DNA of 64,000 nt, taken from positions 1,364,001 to 1,428,000 of the forward strand of contig NZ_JACSMD010000001.1 of NCBI RefSeq assembly GCF_018618475.1, written 5' to 3'. The position numbers were made by a program, and so were the translations under genes. The stretch's first letter is position 1. Every line of letters begins with the position of its first letter. The notes under the pieces were generated by a model. It made no database searches. It was not told the origin of the DNA and was given only the letters and a program-made list of their open reading frames with translations. The stretch is from Exiguobacterium sp. s122. GTDB lineage: Bacteria; Bacillota; Bacilli; Exiguobacteriales; Exiguobacteriaceae. Of this stretch, positions 9,676 to 43,125 are shown piece after piece.

Positions 9676-9861
9676 ATTACATATCTCCAATACATATAAA
9701 TCATTTCGACCAAGAAATTGTAAAGAATGGATAACTTGGCATTTATTATTATAAGTACATTTCTGAAAGAATTAAATTTAATTTTTTGGATTTTTAAATA
9801 TATTTTCTTCATTTTGAAATTAATTCATTTTTTGATTGATTTGATAATGAATAATAAATGA

Positions 9862-9910
9862 TTGATACATCGTAATGGTTACGTTATGATTTAATTCGTA
9901 ATCATTACAA
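9862..9910 (+). promoter_or_regulatory. Sigma-A promoter with two Zur-like operators
   Basis: TTGATA (9862-9867), a 17-base spacer and TATGAT (9885-9890) form a good promoter. Two 7-1-7 palindromes overlap it: TCGTAATGGTTACGT (9870-9884) within the spacer and TCGTAATCATTACAA (9896-9910) at the expected start site. The Bacillus Zur consensus is TCGTAATnATTACGA; the second box matches at 13 of 14 specified positions. The CG pair distinguishes it from Fur and PerR boxes. A weaker Fur/PerR-like TGATAAT half-site lies at 9842-9848. The rest of 9676-9861 is AT-rich without a gene. Confidence 0.75.
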
Positions 9911-9933
9911 TTTGAAAGAAGGATGTCACTTAT

Positions 9934-11433
9934 ATGAAATATGTACGCTCTCTAATCTGTATACTTTCACTCGTTGTGTTGGCGGCATGTAGCGAACCCG
10001 ACCAAGACAATCGTCACTTACACTTTGTTTATAATTTCTCGACTCAATCACTAGACCCGCATCGTGACTCAAGTTACGTGCCGCTCCGCGCGGGTGTGAC
10101 CGAAACGCTCTTCAAATTGAACGATGAGACATTATCTGTCGATCCATGGCTCGCACGCTCGTTCGAGCAAGTGAATGAAACGACATGGCGCATTTACATA
10201 CGAGAAGACGTCACGTTCCATAATGGAAAACCGCTCGACGCACAAGCAGTCAAACGGTCACTCGATCGCTCTCTTGATGAGAATATAGGGCTCCAAAGCG
10301 CATTGCGTATCAAGTCGATTACTGCGGAAGCATCGAATCTGTTAATTGAGACGACCATCCCTTATCCAGAACTCGTCAATGAACTTGTCCATCCGAACAC
10401 ATCTATCATCGATGTCACCGCGGATGCGGCAATCGATCAGCAACCTATCGGGACCGGTCCTTTTCAAGTTGTGTCATTCCAACCCGGATCGAACATTCAA
10501 CTTGAGCGGCATAACGCCTATTGGGATGGAACACCGAAACTCGATACCGTCATGTTCACATTTAATGAGGACCCAGGATCTCGTACAATGGCGCTTCAAT
10601 CTGGTGAAGCAGACATCGTTTATCGTCCGGAAATCGAAATGATCGATACGTTGGAGCAGAACGGGCATATCGTCGATAAAGCAGAGACGTTCCGCGTCCA
10701 TCAATTGACGATGAACCTTGAACGCGGACATATGCAGTCGCTCGCCATGCGTCGAATGATCGACTCGCTCATCAACCGGGAGCAAATCGTGGATGGCATT
10801 CTAAACGGCTATGCCACGACTGCAGCCGGTCCATTCTTACCGTCGTTCCCGTTCGCCCCGACATACGAAAATCATGAGGAACAAGACGTCTTATATTTAC
10901 TTAAACAAGATGGTTATGAGAACGTTCACGGGGTGTTGACAAAAGATGGTGAACCGGTCCGGTTAAAACTACTGACGTACAGCTCCCGACCTGACTTACC
11001 GCTTATCGCACAGCTGATTCAATCCGACGCAAAACAAGCCGGGATTACGATTGATATTCAAATGATTGACACACCCGAAGAATACATGGCATCCGAACGA
11101 AATTGGGATCTTGCGACGTATAGCAATTTGACCGCGCCCCGTGGTGATGGCGGCTATTATTTGAACGCCACGTTCCATCCGGACGGCGCGTTGAATTTTA
11201 GCGGGGTAGAAGATTCGACGTTGACGCAGAAAATCGACCGCTTAAACGAGACGGTCGACCGTACCGAACGTGACCGTATGACTGAAGAGATTGCGCAATA
11301 TGTCGATGAGCGTGTCATCAACTCCTTTTTAGTCCATCCGTCGACAAATGTCGCGTTGAAAGACAGTGTCCGTGGGTGGGTCACTGAAAAGAGCGAGTAT
11401 TATATGATCACAAAAGATTTGGATGTGTTGTGA
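9934..11433 (+). CDS. Nickel/peptide-type ABC transporter substrate-binding lipoprotein
   Basis: Extracytoplasmic solute receptor (SBP_bac_5 family, 499 aa) anchored by a lipobox with Cys19 (VVLAACSEP). Family features are the N-terminal STQSLDPHRD, FHNGKPLDAQAVKRSLDR, and GTGPFQVVSFQPGSNIQLERH. Members bind oligopeptides, nickel chelates or nicotianamine-like metallophores such as staphylopine. With two permeases and two ATPases downstream it forms a complete importer. The Zur-like boxes over its promoter favour zinc or a metallophore over peptide. The ligand remains inference. Confidence 0.88.
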   Translation: MKYVRSLICILSLVVLAACSEPDQDNRHLHFVYNFSTQSLDPHRDSSYVPLRAGVTETLFKLNDETLSVDPWLARSFEQVNETTWRIYIREDVTFHNGKPLDAQAVKRSLDRSLDENIGLQSALRIKSITAEASNLLIETTIPYPELVNELVHPNTSIIDVTADAAIDQQPIGTGPFQVVSFQPGSNIQLERHNAYWDGTPKLDTVMFTFNEDPGSRTMALQSGEADIVYRPEIEMIDTLEQNGHIVDKAETFRVHQLTMNLERGHMQSLAMRRMIDSLINREQIVDGILNGYATTAAGPFLPSFPFAPTYENHEEQDVLYLLKQDGYENVHGVLTKDGEPVRLKLLTYSSRPDLPLIAQLIQSDAKQAGITIDIQMIDTPEEYMASERNWDLATYSNLTAPRGDGGYYLNATFHPDGALNFSGVEDSTLTQKIDRLNETVDRTERDRMTEEIAQYVDERVINSFLVHPSTNVALKDSVRGWVTEKSEYYMITKDLDVL

Positions 11434-11434
11434 G

Positions 11435-12376
11435 ATGAAGCGGTTTGTGTTGCGAAAGTCGCTTGAGTGGGGACTAGCTTTTCTAGTCTTCACTTTTTTC
11501 AGTTTTTTACTGCTTCGACTCGTTCCGGGAGACCCTGTCCTCTATCTACTGAAAGTTGATGAACTGCAAATCGACGTGGCTGAAATTGACCGCCTTCGTG
11601 AAGAGCTCGGGTTCACGGAGTCCGTCTGGATTCAATACGCGAACTGGCTCTCTGAAGTCGTTCGCCTGAATTTAGGCGACTCCCTCATTACCGGTCAACC
11701 TGTGACCCAACTGTTTAAGGATAACTATGTCGCCACATTCGAGCTTGCGGCAGGTGGTGTCCTTGTAGCGGTTGTGCTCGCCGTCCCGCTCGGTGCGATC
11801 AGTGCGTTCCGGCCGAATTCTGCCTTCGCCAAACTCGCTTCAGGGTTATCAATTCTCGGCTCATCGGTTCCAAGTTTTTTGATTGGCTTGACTCTCATGT
11901 ATGTGTTCGCCGTATCCCTTCAATGGTTACCTGTGATGGGGAGAAACGGATTAACGAGTCTCATCTTGCCATCTTTGACGTTAGGCATCGCCGTAGGCGG
12001 CGTCTACATCCGCCTCATCCGTTCAACATTGCTTGAGGTGATGTCGACGGATTATGTCATGATGGCGAAAATACGTGGGATTCGTTCAAGAACGTTATTG
12101 ACGCGTTATATCGTGCGAGCTGCCTTACCGCCTGTCGTCTCGATGTTCGGAGTGAGTGTGGCAAGTCTTATGGGAGGCGTAGTCGTACTCGAAGTGTTGT
12201 TTGCCTATCCGGGGGTGGGAAAACTCATGGTCGATTCGGTATTACGTCGTGACTTCCCGGTCTTACAGGGCTATCTCGTCTTCACTACTTGTTTAGTCGT
12301 CAGTATTAATCTGATGACCGGTGTGACGTTACGGGTACTTCAACCTCATCTTTATCGAAAGGATGTGTCAAGATGA
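11435..12376 (+). CDS. ABC transporter permease (NikB/DppB type)
   Basis: First membrane subunit of the importer, 313 aa, with an N-terminal TM (LAFLVFTFFSFLLLRLVPGDP is the conserved entry motif), a periplasmic loop and five further helices. The permease/ATPase coupling segment DYVMMAKIRGIRSRTLLTRY is present, as is the family's C-terminal FAYPGVGKLMVDSV. The ATG at 11435 begins one base after the receptor gene's TGA; an in-frame ATG at 11423 overlaps that gene. Confidence 0.9.
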   Translation: MKRFVLRKSLEWGLAFLVFTFFSFLLLRLVPGDPVLYLLKVDELQIDVAEIDRLREELGFTESVWIQYANWLSEVVRLNLGDSLITGQPVTQLFKDNYVATFELAAGGVLVAVVLAVPLGAISAFRPNSAFAKLASGLSILGSSVPSFLIGLTLMYVFAVSLQWLPVMGRNGLTSLILPSLTLGIAVGGVYIRLIRSTLLEVMSTDYVMMAKIRGIRSRTLLTRYIVRAALPPVVSMFGVSVASLMGGVVVLEVLFAYPGVGKLMVDSVLRRDFPVLQGYLVFTTCLVVSINLMTGVTLRVLQPHLYRKDVSR

Positions 12377-13152
12377 ATAAATGGCCGATTCGATTCAGCT
12401 TGGTCTTCATGTTTGTTGCTGTTTGCTGGATGGTAGTAATGGGAGACCCGTTCACTGCAAACGTGACGAATCGACTTGCCGCCCCGTCTCTAAACCATCT
12501 GCTCGGAACCGACCACCTCGGGCGAGATGTGTTATCGCGGCTTCTTCTTGCAGGAGGTATCACGGTCGGGTTAAGTCTCGCCATCGTGATTGTCACAGCG
12601 ACAATCGGCGTTATACTTGGTCTGATGAGCGGTTTCGTCTATCGAAAATTGGAACCCATCGTGACAAAAGTGACAGATGCGACCATCATCTTTCCCGATA
12701 CCGTGCTCGCCATCGTACTCGCCGGAGTCATGGGTCCGAGTATTCAAAGTCTCGTTCTCGCCATCAGCTTGATTAAATGGACGTCTTATACTCGACTCGT
12801 CCATACGCTCGTCATGCAGGAGAGCACCAAAGGACATATTCTCGCTGCCCGTGTGAACGGACTCTCAAGGCCGAAGATTGCACGTCGGCACATTCTTCCG
12901 GCAATCTGTCCGCATATTTTGGTCGTCATGAGTCTCGATCTCGGAAAAGTGATCTTGCTTATCTCCGCATTCTCTTTCATCGGATTAGGTGTTCAGTTGC
13001 CTTTACCGGAATGGGGCGGCATGATCAGTGAAGGACGAAACTACCTCTCGACCAATCCGGCACTCGTGTTCTGGCCGGCCGTCTGTATCGTATTGACCAT
13101 AATCGGGTCGACGAGATTATCGACGAAACTAACACGTCATTTCCAAGTTTAA
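12373..13152 (+). CDS. ABC transporter permease (NikC/DppC type)
   Basis: Second membrane subunit, 259 aa. LLGTDHLGRDVLSRLLLAG and the coupling loop KGHILAARVNGLSRPKIARR are typical of the DppC/NikC family, and LPEWGGMISEGRNYL is the conserved C-terminal motif. It overlaps the preceding permease gene by 4 bases (ATGA). It is on the short side for the family (about 270-300 aa), with a brief N-terminus. Confidence 0.9.
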   Translation: MNKWPIRFSLVFMFVAVCWMVVMGDPFTANVTNRLAAPSLNHLLGTDHLGRDVLSRLLLAGGITVGLSLAIVIVTATIGVILGLMSGFVYRKLEPIVTKVTDATIIFPDTVLAIVLAGVMGPSIQSLVLAISLIKWTSYTRLVHTLVMQESTKGHILAARVNGLSRPKIARRHILPAICPHILVVMSLDLGKVILLISAFSFIGLGVQLPLPEWGGMISEGRNYLSTNPALVFWPAVCIVLTIIGSTRLSTKLTRHFQV

Positions 13153-13170
13153 CTATCAGGAGGCCACGAC

Positions 13171-13941
13171 ATGCTACGCATTGAGCACCTTTATGTCAAG
13201 CAAGGTGAGCGTTCACTTTTACAGGATGTCTCCCTTTTCATCGAACAAAACAAATGGGTCTGTCTTGTCGGTGCGAGCGGGAGCGGGAAATCGCTTCTCG
13301 TCAAATCGATTCTGCAGATGCTGCCGAACACCCTTCAACCGAGCGGTACGATTTCGTGGAACGGCGAAGACATTCAAAGAGCCAGTACCACCTGTTCGAT
13401 CTATGGGTGTGAAATCGGCTATATTCCTCAACAATATACGACGTCGTTCGCTCCATTTTTAACGATGGATGCGCATATTCGCGATTTGTTCGTAAGTCAT
13501 AAGCAATCATACGACGCAGACCGCATCCGCTCCATTATGGACAAAGTCCATTTATCGGAAGAACTGTTGCATCGCTATCCAGGGGAACTGAGTGGCGGAC
13601 AATTACAGCGTTTTTCGCTCGTGCTTGCAAGTATCCTTCAACCGACACTTCTTATCGCGGATGAAATTACGAATGCGCTCGACGTGTTGACGGCTCGGCA
13701 AGTGACCGAGTGGTTGAAGACGATGGTTGGACGAACATCGAGCCTGTTATGGGTCACCCACGATTTAGCCGAGGCGATGATGTATGCCGACTATATTCTC
13801 GTCATGAAAGAAGGACGGATTGTTGACGCGGGAGACCGGGCGCAATTGCTTGACTCACTAAACCCGTACACAAAGTCCTTGCTCAAGGCGGCACCGATTT
13901 TAACACGAGAGGATCGACTCGAATATGTTCCTACACGTTAA
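13171..13941 (+). CDS. ABC transporter ATPase (NikD/DppD type)
   Basis: Nucleotide-binding subunit of 256 aa. Walker A GASGSGKSLL, Q-loop in IPQQYTTSF, signature LSGGQLQR, Walker B LLIADEITNALD and switch His in WVTHDLAEA are intact. Walker B is followed by ITNALD rather than the common PTTALD. A good AGGAGG site precedes the ATG after an 18-base gap. It lacks the longer C-terminal oligopeptide domain of OppD. Confidence 0.9.
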   Translation: MLRIEHLYVKQGERSLLQDVSLFIEQNKWVCLVGASGSGKSLLVKSILQMLPNTLQPSGTISWNGEDIQRASTTCSIYGCEIGYIPQQYTTSFAPFLTMDAHIRDLFVSHKQSYDADRIRSIMDKVHLSEELLHRYPGELSGGQLQRFSLVLASILQPTLLIADEITNALDVLTARQVTEWLKTMVGRTSSLLWVTHDLAEAMMYADYILVMKEGRIVDAGDRAQLLDSLNPYTKSLLKAAPILTREDRLEYVPTR

Positions 13942-14695
13942 AGACGTCTCAAAATACTATAATGGAAAGCCAATCTTGCGTGACGTCACATTCACCGTTC
14001 AGGCTGGCGAATCGGTCGGGCTGATTGGGACGAGCGGAAGTGGGAAAAGCACGTTGTCACGCTGTATCCTCGGACTTGAGTCGATTGACGATGGAGAGAT
14101 TCGTTTCAGAGATTTGTCTTGGCATAGCGCTTCACACGAAGAACGAAGGTCGATGAGAAAAAACATCCAAGCGGTGTTTCAAGATAGCTCCGAATCGTTT
14201 AACCCGAGATGGACGCTAGCAGATTCGATTTTAGAGCCGCTCCGTCACTTTCAAATGATTGAACCGAGTGAGGAATCGACTAAGTTGGCTCATTTGCTCG
14301 ATGTCGTTCAACTGCCACACGCATGCATGGCCTCCTATCCACGAGAGTTAAGCGGAGGACAAAAGCAGCGGGCCGCCATCGCCAGGTCGCTAAGCCTCAA
14401 TCCTCAACTCGTTGTGTTTGACGAAGCGACCACAGCTCTCGACACGCTCACGCAACATCATATCGTCGAGATGCTACAGTCTTATCGTCACGATCAATCG
14501 AAGGCGTTCCTATTCATCTCTCATGATTTATCGGTCGTATCAAAATTGTGCGATCGTATCCTTGTCTTATCTGAAGGAACGATTGTTGACGCATTCCGTA
14601 CCGATGAATTGTTTGGAGATGCGCGACATCCGTACACGACTGCATTGCGTGATGCGTTTGTCGAGAAGGGCCGATTGTTACATGGTCTCGACTAA
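13925..14695 (+). CDS. ABC transporter ATPase (NikE/DppF type)
   Basis: Second nucleotide-binding subunit, 256 aa, with Walker A GTSGSGKSTL, Q-loop AVFQDSSESFNPRW typical of the DppF/NikE branch, signature LSGGQKQR, Walker B LVVFDEATTALD and FISHDLSVV. It overlaps the previous ATPase gene by 17 bases and the downstream exporter gene by 14, so the five transporter genes and the exporter form one tightly coupled unit. Confidence 0.9.
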   Translation: MFLHVKDVSKYYNGKPILRDVTFTVQAGESVGLIGTSGSGKSTLSRCILGLESIDDGEIRFRDLSWHSASHEERRSMRKNIQAVFQDSSESFNPRWTLADSILEPLRHFQMIEPSEESTKLAHLLDVVQLPHACMASYPRELSGGQKQRAAIARSLSLNPQLVVFDEATTALDTLTQHHIVEMLQSYRHDQSKAFLFISHDLSVVSKLCDRILVLSEGTIVDAFRTDELFGDARHPYTTALRDAFVEKGRLLHGLD

Positions 14696-15995
14696 ATCAT
14701 TTTGGCTCATCGCTTATCCGCTCGTACTCGCTGGTTTTTCGACGCCACTCCTCGGTGTGGTCGATACGATTGTCATTGCGAACACGGGCGATTTGACTGC
14801 GATTGGGGCAGTTGCAATCGGGGCGGTCGTATTCAATACCCTCTATTGGCTATTCGGGTTTTTAAAGATCAGCACGAGCGGGTTCACTGCGCAAGCACTC
14901 GGACAAAACGATCCAACCCTCGTTCAAATGAGTTTGTTTCGTCCGCTCGTCCTATCTTTTCTTATCGGAATCGGTTTCGTCTTCCTCCTCATACCGATTC
15001 GCGAGTCCGCCATCTTTATCCTTGTGACCGATGCCTCTATGGCCGACGCCGTCCGAACGTATATTACGACGCGCCTCTTTGCAGCTCCATTCGCCCTTGG
15101 CACATATGTCATACTCGGTTGGTTGATCGGTCACGGCCGAGTTCGGACCGCTTTAGTCATTCAAGTCGGGGGAAACTTGTTGAACATCATCTTAGACGTA
15201 TGGTTCATACGTCTGTTTGATGATTCAGTTGCCGGCATTGCGCTCGCGACAAGTTTGTCAGAAGCGATGACGTTCGGGTTTGGGTGGCTGTTCATCTATA
15301 GTCGTACCTCGTTTTCTACACAAATCAGTCGAGAATTATTGAACGTCGGCGCTTATGTCACCTATTTGACGGTCAATCGTGATCTGTTCATTCGTACCGT
15401 TTTTTTGCTACTTATGACCCTTTCGTTCACCTCACTCGGTGCGAGACAAGGCGTCGAGGCGTTGAGTGCGAACGCCATCTTGTTTCAATTGCAATACTTA
15501 ATCGCCTACTGGTTCGGTGGGATCGGACAAGCTTCAACAGTCTTAATCGGTCGCGCAATCGGGCAGAAATCGCAAGAAGCGTATCGCGTTACCGTTCACA
15601 TCGGCGCTCGCTTTATTTTTTGGTCGATGATTGGAATCACCGTCTTCCTGTTAGCTGCACAAGATGGCGTCATCCGGATGTTCACTGACGATTTGGCGCT
15701 CCGGACGACGATTGAAACGTATTATATTTGGATTTTACTTTATCCGCTCGCAGGCGGTTTCGCCATGTTGTATGAAGGCATTTTTGCTGGCATGGGATTC
15801 GCGCGACCCGTTCGTAATTCACTCATTTATGCGTTTCTCGTTTTTACGTTCGTGGTCATCTTGCTTACCCCATTGATTGCGAACCACGGGATTTGGGTGG
15901 CTTTCCTTTGCTTCAGCCTCACTCGCTCAGTCTCATTGGTCATAAGTGAACGGAGAAAACGTCTTCACCTTTTTTCTCCGTCTCATTTTTCCTGA
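14682..15995 (+). CDS. MATE family efflux transporter
   Basis: 437-aa inner membrane exporter with about twelve TM helices in two six-helix repeats, driven by H+ or Na+ in this family. The start pattern (FWLIAYPLVLAGFSTPLLGV then DTIVIANTGD) is typical of DinF-like MATE proteins. The reading frame is open upstream to 14412 inside the ATPase gene, but the ATG at 14682, with GAGAAGGG before it, is the first that gives a normal MATE N-terminus. Being last in the Zur-box operon, it may export a metallophore or recycle the carrier after uptake; that is inference. Confidence 0.88.
   Translation: MVSTKSFWLIAYPLVLAGFSTPLLGVVDTIVIANTGDLTAIGAVAIGAVVFNTLYWLFGFLKISTSGFTAQALGQNDPTLVQMSLFRPLVLSFLIGIGFVFLLIPIRESAIFILVTDASMADAVRTYITTRLFAAPFALGTYVILGWLIGHGRVRTALVIQVGGNLLNIILDVWFIRLFDDSVAGIALATSLSEAMTFGFGWLFIYSRTSFSTQISRELLNVGAYVTYLTVNRDLFIRTVFLLLMTLSFTSLGARQGVEALSANAILFQLQYLIAYWFGGIGQASTVLIGRAIGQKSQEAYRVTVHIGARFIFWSMIGITVFLLAAQDGVIRMFTDDLALRTTIETYYIWILLYPLAGGFAMLYEGIFAGMGFARPVRNSLIYAFLVFTFVVILLTPLIANHGIWVAFLCFSLTRSVSLVISERRKRLHLFSPSHFS
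15950..15990 (+). terminator. Terminator overlapping the 3' end of the MATE gene
   Basis: ACGGAGAAAA (15950-15959) pairs with TTTTCTCCGT (15972-15981), followed by CTCATTTTT. The hairpin lies within the last codons of the exporter gene. Confidence 0.7.
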
Positions 15996-16067: not shown

Positions 16068-16349
16068 ATGAACCTGATTCAGACGAATCCACAAAGAAAA
16101 AAAAGACGCTACATGTACGCCTTTATCCTCCTCACCTTACTCAATACAATGCAACATGCATATGACATCGATTCAGATGCGTCTTCTCCATACCGACTCG
16201 TCGGAGGTCTCATTTTTTATGCGACCCTGCTCTATTTTGGGTTAAAAGAAAAAATGTGGGCTGAGATTGCGATCAAGTTTGGCGTCTGGTTCAACGTCAT
16301 CGCTTTATTCGTCATCCTCTTGTTCATGGGACTCTCCCTGCTTGCATGA
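16068..16349 (+). CDS. Small membrane protein, unknown
   Basis: 93 aa with a basic N-terminus (NPQRKKRRY) and three hydrophobic segments; the last two (LVGGLIFYATLLYFG and FNVIALFVILLFMGLSLL) look like TM helices. AGAAGGCGG lies 11 bases before the ATG. No family recognised. It sits alone between the metal-transport operon and the convergent adhE, sharing a terminator with adhE. Confidence 0.6.
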   Translation: MNLIQTNPQRKKRRYMYAFILLTLLNTMQHAYDIDSDASSPYRLVGGLIFYATLLYFGLKEKMWAEIAIKFGVWFNVIALFVILLFMGLSLLA

Positions 16350-16352
16350 AAA

Positions 16353-16384
16353 AAGGCGGCCACTCGTATGAGTGGCCGCCTTTC
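16353..16384. terminator. Bidirectional terminator between the 93-aa gene and adhE
   Basis: A 14-bp perfect stem (16353-16366 with 16371-16384), GC-rich in the centre with A and T runs at the ends, lies between convergent genes and can act in both directions. Confidence 0.93.
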
Positions 16385-41430: not shown

Positions 41431-42193
41431 AGCGATAAGCCTCCCAGCTCGTCTCGATTGGGGCATGGACGTCAATTAGTGACAGTTGTTTTGACAGTTT
41501 CGCCACGTCTTCTTGCCCATCGAGCTTCTTCGAGAACTTCCGGTGCGCCTCGAGCAATTGATCATGCTTCAACCGGTCAAACAGCACTTCGACCGTATCG
41601 TACGATTGAACGAGAATCGTCGCCGTCTTCGGTCCAATGCCACGGACGCCCGGAATATTGTCCGATGCGTCTCCTTGGAGCGCCTTTACATCGACAAACT
41701 GAAGCGGTTTGATGCCGTAAAGCGACTCAAACACTTCACCGTTCATGAGCACTTCTTCCCCTTTTTTCGGGACGATTTGAAAGACCGAGTCCGATAACAG
41801 TTGGTGCAGGTCGCGGTCCGACGAATAGAGGTACGACTCGCCTGGGAAGTGTGTCGCCACCGCGCCCATCAAGTCGTCGGCCTCATAACCAGCGAGCTCT
41901 GATTGGAAGATGCCGCGTTCCGTCAATGCCGCCCGCAATTTGACGTAGTCGTCGAATAACGGTTCCGGCAGCCCGGTCCGTGTTGCCTTATATTCAGGGA
42001 AAATGGCGAATCGATGTGTCGATTCACGCGGCCCGTCCCAAAAGAAAGCGATATGAGAGAAGTCATTCGTCCACCCATCGACTTTTCGGAGCAAGCCTTT
42101 CACGGTCACATCAGGGTCGAGTGCCCGACGACGCTCTGTCGCGAAATAGTAGCGCGACAACAAGTTGAACCCATCCACTAACATCAGTTTCAC
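41411..42193 (-). CDS. 5'-3' exonuclease (PolA N-domain-like)
   Basis: 260-aa stand-alone FEN/XPG-type nuclease like B. subtilis YpcP. MLVDGFNLLSRYYF and the acidic AGYEADDLMGAVA are metal-binding regions; ALQGDASDNIPGVRGIGPKT is the helix-hairpin-helix DNA-binding segment. It removes RNA primers and flaps during replication and repair; the co-transcribed RNase H fits that role. It overlaps the CobW gene by 4 bases. Confidence 0.93.
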   Translation of the reverse strand: MKLMLVDGFNLLSRYYFATERRRALDPDVTVKGLLRKVDGWTNDFSHIAFFWDGPRESTHRFAIFPEYKATRTGLPEPLFDDYVKLRAALTERGIFQSELAGYEADDLMGAVATHFPGESYLYSSDRDLHQLLSDSVFQIVPKKGEEVLMNGEVFESLYGIKPLQFVDVKALQGDASDNIPGVRGIGPKTATILVQSYDTVEVLFDRLKHDQLLEAHRKFSKKLDGQEDVAKLSKQLSLIDVHAPIETSWEAYRFGSHLF

Positions 42194-43125
42194 GTCTCAT
42201 CCACCTCACATGCCTGTAATCCGCGAGCGAGTGCGTCACGGTCAAGTTCTTTTCCAATCCAAACAAACACCGAACGGGCGTCATCGCTCGGCTCGTTCGC
42301 GAACGTCGCACCCATCAACTGGTTCGTCGCCTGGACGACGAATTTAGACCGTTCCCCGTCAAGTCGGACGATCGCCTTTAAACGATACAGCTGGTCCTCA
42401 TAATGCATGAGTACCTCTCGAACGTAGCGCGTTACACGTTCCCTTGAGAGCGGTACGTCTGTCGTCAACGTGACGGCACGAAGCGTGGCGACCGACCCGT
42501 GACCTTCTGTCAACGTCGACAGCTGTCTCTCGTCGACACGCGATAACTGAAACGTGTTTTCGAGCAAATCGTAGTCCCCTTCCGTCTGTACCGTCTCGAC
42601 GACGCGAACGGTTGGGTTGATTGTTCGAATCCGCTCATGCGCCTCCCTGAGCGCGGTCTCGTCCACGAGATCCGTCTTATTCAAAAGAATCACGTCGGCA
42701 TAAGCGATTTGATGAATTCCTTCTATAAACAGGTCACGATTCATTTGGCTCGCATCGACGACCGTTAATATCGCGGTCAACTTGAAATGAGTTCGTAAGT
42801 AGTCATCATAATAAATTGTCTGGATGATGGGGGCTGGATCGGCAACACCTGTCGTCTCGATGACGATCCGGTCGAACGTCTTGTCTTTAGCCGCAAGTTG
42901 ATAAAACGTCTTACTTAAATCGTTTTGAATCGAGCAACAAATACAGCCGTTTGACAATTCAATTTGTTCTTGGTCCATCTGGACGATCAATTGCTCATCC
43001 AAATTGACGGAACCGAGCTCGTTGACGATGAGCAAGATGCGCTCGTTCGTCGCCGCGAGCAGCCGGTTCATATAAGTCGTCTTGCCGGCACCTAAAAAAC
43101 CGGTCACAAGTTGCACGGGAATCAT
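42190..43125 (-). CDS. CobW/COG0523 family metal-chaperone GTPase
   Basis: 311-aa G3E GTPase. Walker A is GFLGAGKTT, the metal-binding CxCC is in SNGCICCSIQND, and NKTDLVDE is the base-specificity motif. The C-terminal CobW domain follows. Relatives insert or transfer zinc (YciC, ZNG1), cobalt or nickel. I find no Zur box before this operon, and it is embedded among nuclease genes, so its client may be one of those metal-dependent enzymes; that is inference. Confidence 0.92.
   Translation of the reverse strand: MIPVQLVTGFLGAGKTTYMNRLLAATNERILLIVNELGSVNLDEQLIVQMDQEQIELSNGCICCSIQNDLSKTFYQLAAKDKTFDRIVIETTGVADPAPIIQTIYYDDYLRTHFKLTAILTVVDASQMNRDLFIEGIHQIAYADVILLNKTDLVDETALREAHERIRTINPTVRVVETVQTEGDYDLLENTFQLSRVDERQLSTLTEGHGSVATLRAVTLTTDVPLSRERVTRYVREVLMHYEDQLYRLKAIVRLDGERSKFVVQATNQLMGATFANEPSDDARSVFVWIGKELDRDALARGLQACEVDET

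Follow-up and report, generated by a model that had tools for sequence, protein, structure and literature searches.

The window analysed here is a stretch of 64,000 nucleotides from Exiguobacterium sp. s122 (contig NZ_JACSMD010000001.1, positions 1,364,001 to 1,428,000). On its forward strand, six intact, co-directional genes at 9934 to 15995 encode a substrate-binding receptor, two permeases, two ATPases and a MATE exporter. The distances between successive genes are 1, -4, 18, -17 and -14 nt, negative values being overlaps. A gene set of this kind, with overlapping genes behind a promoter with two Zur-like palindromes, had been described in an original prediction made from the DNA alone; the overlaps (4, 17 and 14 nt) and the palindromes were both found again. 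We consider here whether this operon is a zinc uptake system under the control of Zur.

Genes and promoter of the operon

The Pfam assignments of the six products are, in gene order, SBP_bac_5, BPD_transp_1 (twice), ABC_tran (twice) and MatE. The first gene (9934-11433) encodes a lipoprotein-like receptor of the Opp5A/NikA family, which scores 673 bits in the NCBIfam model NF045468 (cut-off 600) and 24 bits in the OppA model. Against solved structures it scores 583 bits with PDB 3t66 ("nickel ABC transporter"), and SaNikA (4ofj) follows far behind with 286 bits. The permeases are Opp2B-like (11435-12376; NF045470, 334 bits, below the cut-off of 350) and Opp2C-like (12373-13152; NF045474, 268 bits, below the cut-off of 300). 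The ATPases are NikD-like (13171-13941; TIGR02770, 163 bits) and NikE-like (13925-14695; TIGR02769, 241 bits); both pass PF00005 and stay under the cut-offs of the more specific models. The exporter (14682-15995, scanned from 14685) passes PF01554 and TIGR00797 and is distantly DinF-like. An assignment to DinF itself was rejected, because the protein scores 220.5 bits in NF007690 (cut-off 409) and lies apart from E. coli DinF in a tree.

For the promoter we used the 15-base, 7-1-7 motif TCGTAATNATTACGA, which we take to be the Zur consensus of Bacilli. A promoter-like sequence, TTGATA-17-TATGAT, lies at 9862-9890 on the forward strand. It agrees with the consensus at 10 of 12 positions and aligns with six relatives, but it is weak evidence by itself, since the region holds 11 such matches against a mean of 8.8 in shuffled sequence. 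Box 1, TCGTAATGGTTACGT (9870-9884), has 2 mismatches to the motif and sits in the spacer between -35 and -10. Box 2, TCGTAATCATTACAA (9896-9910), has 1 mismatch and starts 5 bp downstream of the -10, close to the expected transcription start. The boxes, to which no strand is assigned, are thus 26 bp apart and flank the -10, a layout in which a bound repressor would be expected to block the polymerase. In the seven aligned promoters both boxes are kept, and the -35 is weaker in three (G014, G019 and G220). To judge from its sequence, the importer belongs to the Opp5A/Opp2 'nickel' family, of which it forms a branch with Zur boxes, and is not a Cnt system.

Fur and PerR were considered as other readings of the boxes and rejected: box 2 has 4 mismatches to the Fur motif and 3 to the PerR motif, and box 1 has more than 4 to either. 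A Fur-like site with 3 mismatches lies near -92. The Zur box of B. subtilis is described as a 20-nt motif in PMC4324032, the consulted part of which gives no text match to TCGTAAT.

Downstream of the exporter gene, a gene at 16068-16349 on the forward strand encodes a small protein of 93 amino acids, membrane-like by eye, that matched no family. It is present in all four other loci of the same genus and in none of nine loci of the sister genus, and it is perhaps the last gene of the transcript. A terminator-like stem-loop with 14 pairs follows at 16352-16383 on the same strand (9 such hits against 7.4 in shuffles).

Distribution of the Zur-like boxes and of two receptor kinds

A genome-wide scan for the box, which had been proposed with the original prediction, gave 15 sites with at most 2 mismatches in 2.98 Mb, and the pair at 9870 and 9896 is the only closely spaced pair among them. 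Relaxing the limit to 3 mismatches gives 179 sites for the motif and 51 for its reversed control. Of the two places with the exact core GTAATNATTAC, one is this promoter and the other lies some 20 bp ahead of a gene that encodes a ZigA-like GTPase (506 bits, below the model cut-off of 600); the reversed control has one place. The count by itself says little; the places where the core occurs say more. The surroundings of the first eight listed of the 15 sites (L001-L008) were inspected. A box with 2 mismatches precedes znuC, and the znuCB operon includes a Fur-family gene that is presumed to encode Zur, being named by its place only (41 bits in the E. coli-type Zur model). The other two Fur-family genes of the genome are one that passes the Fur cut-off and one that scores best as PerR; a fourth match (L012) was discarded, as it is under the cut-off and PadR-like by eye. 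For ZnuA a single homologue was found, and the 4-kb locus around it holds no box at up to 3 mismatches. The window also holds a second CobW-type GTPase gene at 42190-43125 (minus strand; L058:1191-2126), around which no Zur-like box within 3 mismatches was found in 4.5 kb. A review gives znu/adc, zinT, yciC and ribosomal paralogues as Zur targets in Firmicutes (PMC6103462), and Zur regulation has been reported for the Cnt operon (PMC8000910); an Opp5A-type importer was not seen among the Zur targets in the parts of these two sources drawn on here.

The operon has a patchy distribution. In a presence sample of 41 genomes, a close receptor was found in 5 of 19 genomes of the same genus (own genome included) and in 1 of 6 of the sister genus, so that many genomes of the genus are without the operon. 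Together with the class sample described below, 14 family loci were covered, five from the same genus including our own and nine from the sister genus; each has a MATE match and two boxes at a spacing of 26 bp, with at most 3 mismatches. In the G014 locus the receptor gene (L054:1333-2798) is split into two frames, by either a sequencing error or a real loss; the boxes and the MATE gene are kept there.

Beyond the family, we scanned named genomes and a class sample. Among the best 80 loci of the named-genome scan, 42 have a receptor with at least 39% identity, their hosts being Exiguobacterium, Paenibacillus, Saccharibacillus, Domibacillus, Metabacillus, Ureibacillus and further Bacillales. 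A box is present in all 42 at up to 3 mismatches and in 41 at up to 2 (L090 has it at 3 only); in the remaining 38 loci one site was found, at 3 mismatches. Domibacillus sp. PGB-M46 carries both kinds, one locus with three boxes (L068) and one with none (L102).

The class sample comprised 398 genomes, two draws with the same handles being taken as one, and gave 104 receptor rows at 103 places, since one gene was in two pieces. Of these places, 89 were scored, after removal of L235, which overlaps L216: 66 are called zinc-type (above 330 bits) and 23 nickel-type, labels of our own for a split by score that was set after the table had been seen. The 14 unscored places are a third receptor of G096 (in L235, with no site at up to 2 mismatches), second copies in G105, G241, G215, G139, G343, G207, G119, G249 and G109, and those of G033, G244, G208 and G051. 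The named set overlaps this sample, ten receptor pairs being identical in the tree input. A box with at most 2 mismatches lies within 450 bp of 53 of the 66 zinc-type receptors and of none of the 23 nickel-type receptors; at up to 3 mismatches the numbers are 59 and 2. The reversed motif gave none in either kind at up to 2 mismatches and two in each at up to 3, and the 304 kb gene stretch of the 66 zinc-type loci contains no site at up to 2. In three further zinc-type loci the box heads a longer gene row. Control of the operon by Zur, as originally predicted, is thus strongly supported by the conservation of the boxes in related genomes.

In a FastTree receptor tree (134 of 136 rows, two short receptors being omitted; long branches are flagged and several forks are open), the zinc and nickel kinds separate, with the Exiguobacteriaceae together on a single branch within the zinc type. 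A comparison of 65 zinc-type with 21 nickel-type receptors brought out thirteen positions at which the two kinds differ. One alternative is that the operon is a nickel importer, as databases say, that is only expressed under zinc shortage. The receptor does pass the cut-off of NF045468. However, urease alpha was found in none of 25 family genomes (other nickel enzymes were not searched), and urease adjoins 9 of the 23 nickel-type receptors of the class sample; the urease-linked receptors lie on tree branches separate from the box-bearing ones. We consider a nickel importer very unlikely. The boxes and the urease not found support zinc rather than nickel as the presumed metal, and it is likely that a large branch of Bacilli proteins annotated 'nickel ABC transporter', an annotation that occurs for example in plasmid records, consists of zinc-chelate importers.

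In line with a zinc role, ZigA-like genes stand near the importer in Bacillales loci L061, L062, L064, L071 (= L205), L096, L217 and L234; that of L061, the one tested, scores under the model cut-off. On a plasmid of Priestia megaterium H2 (L269:6894-15058), a zinc-type importer whose receptor is 55% identical to ours adjoins rpsN and a gene for a GTP-binding protein, with further Zur-like boxes. This is perhaps a small zinc-starvation island.

The MATE exporter and a possible zinc-chelate cycle

Exporter and synthase genes were judged inside the locus stretches fetched. Among the 66 zinc-type loci, 33 have none of the genes sought and 26 have a MATE gene (two of them also EamA). EamA is found in 7 others, 6 of which carry CntL and CntM. 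Four of the 26 MATE loci, and none of the other 40, carry a nicotianamine synthase gene of the PF03059 type (Fisher p 0.02); CntL with CntM was seen in none of the 26 and in 6 of the 40 (p 0.07). Since the rows are related, these pairing statistics are weak. In Peribacillus sp. SI8-4 (L088) and Bacillus sp. V3-13 (L111) the synthase gene overlaps the end of the MATE gene. The two synthases score 98 and 87 bits in the nicotianamine synthase model and 57 and 50 bits in the CntL model (cut-off 350), and no CntM match was found in either locus. The L088 synthase as protein query matched 54 of 398 genomes, of which only 4 belong to the 26 with MATE; no match came from the Exiguobacteriaceae shown, nor from our own genome. 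Two other loci, L178 (G374) and L180 (G262), have a synthase gene with upstream Zur-like boxes (1-2 mismatches) and no Opp5A/Opp2-type importer in 17 kb. The importer is also paired with CntL-like, CntM-like and EamA genes in a Fictibacillus locus, and with CntL-like, CntM-like and MFS genes in two Paenibacillus loci (CntE is over the cut-off in L097, the one tested). In the named set, MATE was found in 8 of 42 loci, L088 and L111 being two of the eight.

The original prediction had found no cntKLM-like genes in the window, and CntL and CntM were not found genome-wide either (CntK was not searched). CntM (PF10100), nicotianamine synthase (PF03059) and CntL (NF033601) matched nothing in 25 family genomes, our own included. 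PF03059 was also negative in all 41 genomes of the presence sample, the control being found in Methanosarcina only. Because it misses staphylococcal CntL, with no match in G033, CntL was searched separately; both CntL and CntM were found in G033, which served as positive control.

These observations suggest the following cycle, to which we give an even chance. When zinc is sufficient, Zur would occupy both boxes and block the promoter, and when zinc is short it would be released. The receptor would then catch a small zinc chelate outside the cell, which the Opp2-type permeases and the ATPases would carry inward whole. Zinc would be freed inside and the empty chelator sent out by the MATE exporter, so that a chelator made by others would be borrowed and then returned. 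A chelate rather than free zinc is suggested by the receptor family, as Opp/NikA-type receptors are reported to bind metal chelates (PMC5666155, consulted in part). Scavenging is suggested by the fact that no known synthase was found, and the MATE exporter as the way out of the carrier by its pairing with the importer. A nicotianamine-like chelator would be the most likely one, given that some relatives have a nicotianamine synthase gene paired with an exporter of this family. From Zur binding through the metal, the ligand and whole-chelate uptake to the export of the empty carrier, these are steps that we infer.

The family MATE copies form one branch of a subfamily that also holds the synthase-linked MATEs, in a tree with only two outgroups and very long branches. 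Members of this subfamily also follow another, nikABCDE-like importer on plasmids of Cytobacillus solani, Priestia megaterium (two) and Peribacillus simplex (L265, L266, L267 and L270). The receptors of these importers are 21-23% identical to ours, and their promoters carry a Fur-like box with 1-2 mismatches but nothing Zur-like at up to 3. These loci may represent the same module adapted to iron. This MATE thus accompanies importers from two lineages, the presumed control being by zinc in one and by iron in the other, and it is found in none of the 23 nickel-type loci. Such partners are more in keeping with the export of a carrier than with a drug pump, which is no proof. On a plasmid of Paenibacillus sp. 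IHB B 3084 (L268:7492-8800) a zinc-type receptor is followed by fragmentary permease matches and by a MATE gene that the annotation breaks into three pieces; this is a decayed copy.

Several points weigh against the cycle. The receptor passes the cut-off of a model named for nickel, and the presumed Zur passes no model cut-off, scoring best as PerR (84 bits, under the cut-off). For ten of the 66 zinc-type receptors, looking as far as 4 kb upstream gave no box at up to 2 mismatches, and two of these ten loci have MATE. No MATE is seen in 40 of the 66 loci, so that it would not be needed for uptake; two of the 40, L229 and L231, are on contigs that stop short of where MATE usually lies. The synthase query had no match in 22 of the 26 genomes with MATE, and the link between MATE and nicotianamine thus rests on few loci. 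Finally, since its subfamily also stands behind the Fur-boxed plasmid importer, the exporter is not specific to zinc.

Three other explanations concern the carrier and the exporter. First, the operon may serve the Zur-controlled uptake of zinc-histidine or another common chelate with no metallophore economy, MATE being a safety valve for surplus or wrong-metal chelates or an unrelated pump. The receptor resembles SaNikA, the ligand of which we take to be Ni-histidine, 49 receptor positions are conserved to 95% or more in the zinc as well as the nickel kind, and the 33 loci without any exporter or synthase sought point the same way. We regard this as unlikely, because the MATE gene overlaps the last ATPase gene, occurs in none of the 23 nickel-type loci and in several loci has a nicotianamine synthase gene beside it. 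Second, Exiguobacterium might make its own carrier with an enzyme of another family encoded elsewhere, which searches for known families would miss, and MATE, the likely export step in synthase-bearing loci, would secrete it. This is quite unlikely, considering that the three synthase searches were negative in the family, that neighbourhood clusters show no extra gene common to the MATE-only named loci, and that the second exact core precedes a chaperone-like gene, the weaker genome sites being examined only in part. Third, as the majority of loci are without a synthase, MATE could be the remnant of a lost synthase cluster. Its match in all 14 family loci and its dN/dS of 0.10-0.15 among four copies of the genus (0.10-0.13 for the window MATE against three; the G006 copy is omitted) make this very improbable.

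Returning to the borrowed chelator, we put forward a wider proposal more tentatively: most bacteria with the Zur-boxed importer and MATE may make no carrier, draw zinc from nicotianamine-type chelators of plants or neighbours and export the carrier again. Some operons in Bacilli add a Zur-controlled nicotianamine synthase without opine dehydrogenase, so that true nicotianamine might there be a bacterial zincophore with a MATE exporter. The gene pairings offer a direct way to test the bacterial use, and perhaps making, of plain nicotianamine for zinc, and to test whether an exporter recycles a scavenged metallophore.

Comparison with known systems

No description of a Zur-controlled Opp5A/Opp2 importer with MATE was recognised in the literature by title and start of abstract; an earlier mention is possible. 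Cluster scans seeded with CntM would miss these importer-MATE loci. Of the known systems, the staphylococcal Nik nickel importer (Opp5A with Opp2BCDF) shares the family, as the receptor passes NF045468 and the permeases score best as Opp2B and Opp2C, and the importer gene order is shared in L056. It differs in that the 23 nickel-type receptors, classed by score and mostly staphylococcus-like, are 29-37% identical to ours, lack a box at up to 2 mismatches, and adjoin urease in 9 cases and MATE in none.

The staphylopine system (CntABCDF, CntE and CntKLM) is likewise an Opp/NikA-type chelate importer with an exporter and a zinc role (PMC5666155), and it too is reported to be regulated by Zur (PMC8000910), as far as the parts of these sources used here go. 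In contrast, the window receptor scores 89.7 bits in the CntA model (cut-off 800), its exporter is MATE whereas CntE is of the MFS type, and the genome has no CntL or CntM match. The original prediction of an importer for metallophore-bound zinc is partly supported: synthase genes in some related operons back the metallophore link, but the importer itself belongs with Opp5A/Opp2 (staphylococcal Nik) rather than with Cnt.

In the portion consulted of Morey and Kehl-Fie 2020 (PMC7438024), some opine zincophore clusters have Opp/Nik-type importers, and the fusobacterial cluster 8 has a MatE exporter. The exporter of the window is indeed MATE, but the contrast originally drawn with MFS exporters of known systems was too narrow, as MatE is in print for these fusobacterial zincophore clusters. 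Unlike our locus, those clusters were drawn around CntM and the importers of cluster 8 are of the FecCD type; no synthase was found here, and some relatives have nicotianamine synthase without an adjoining CntM. The loci of Peribacillus sp. SI8-4 and Bacillus sp. V3-13 differ from the operon in carrying a synthase gene, none being found in Exiguobacterium, and share with it the Zur-like boxes, the same importer branch and the MATE exporter.

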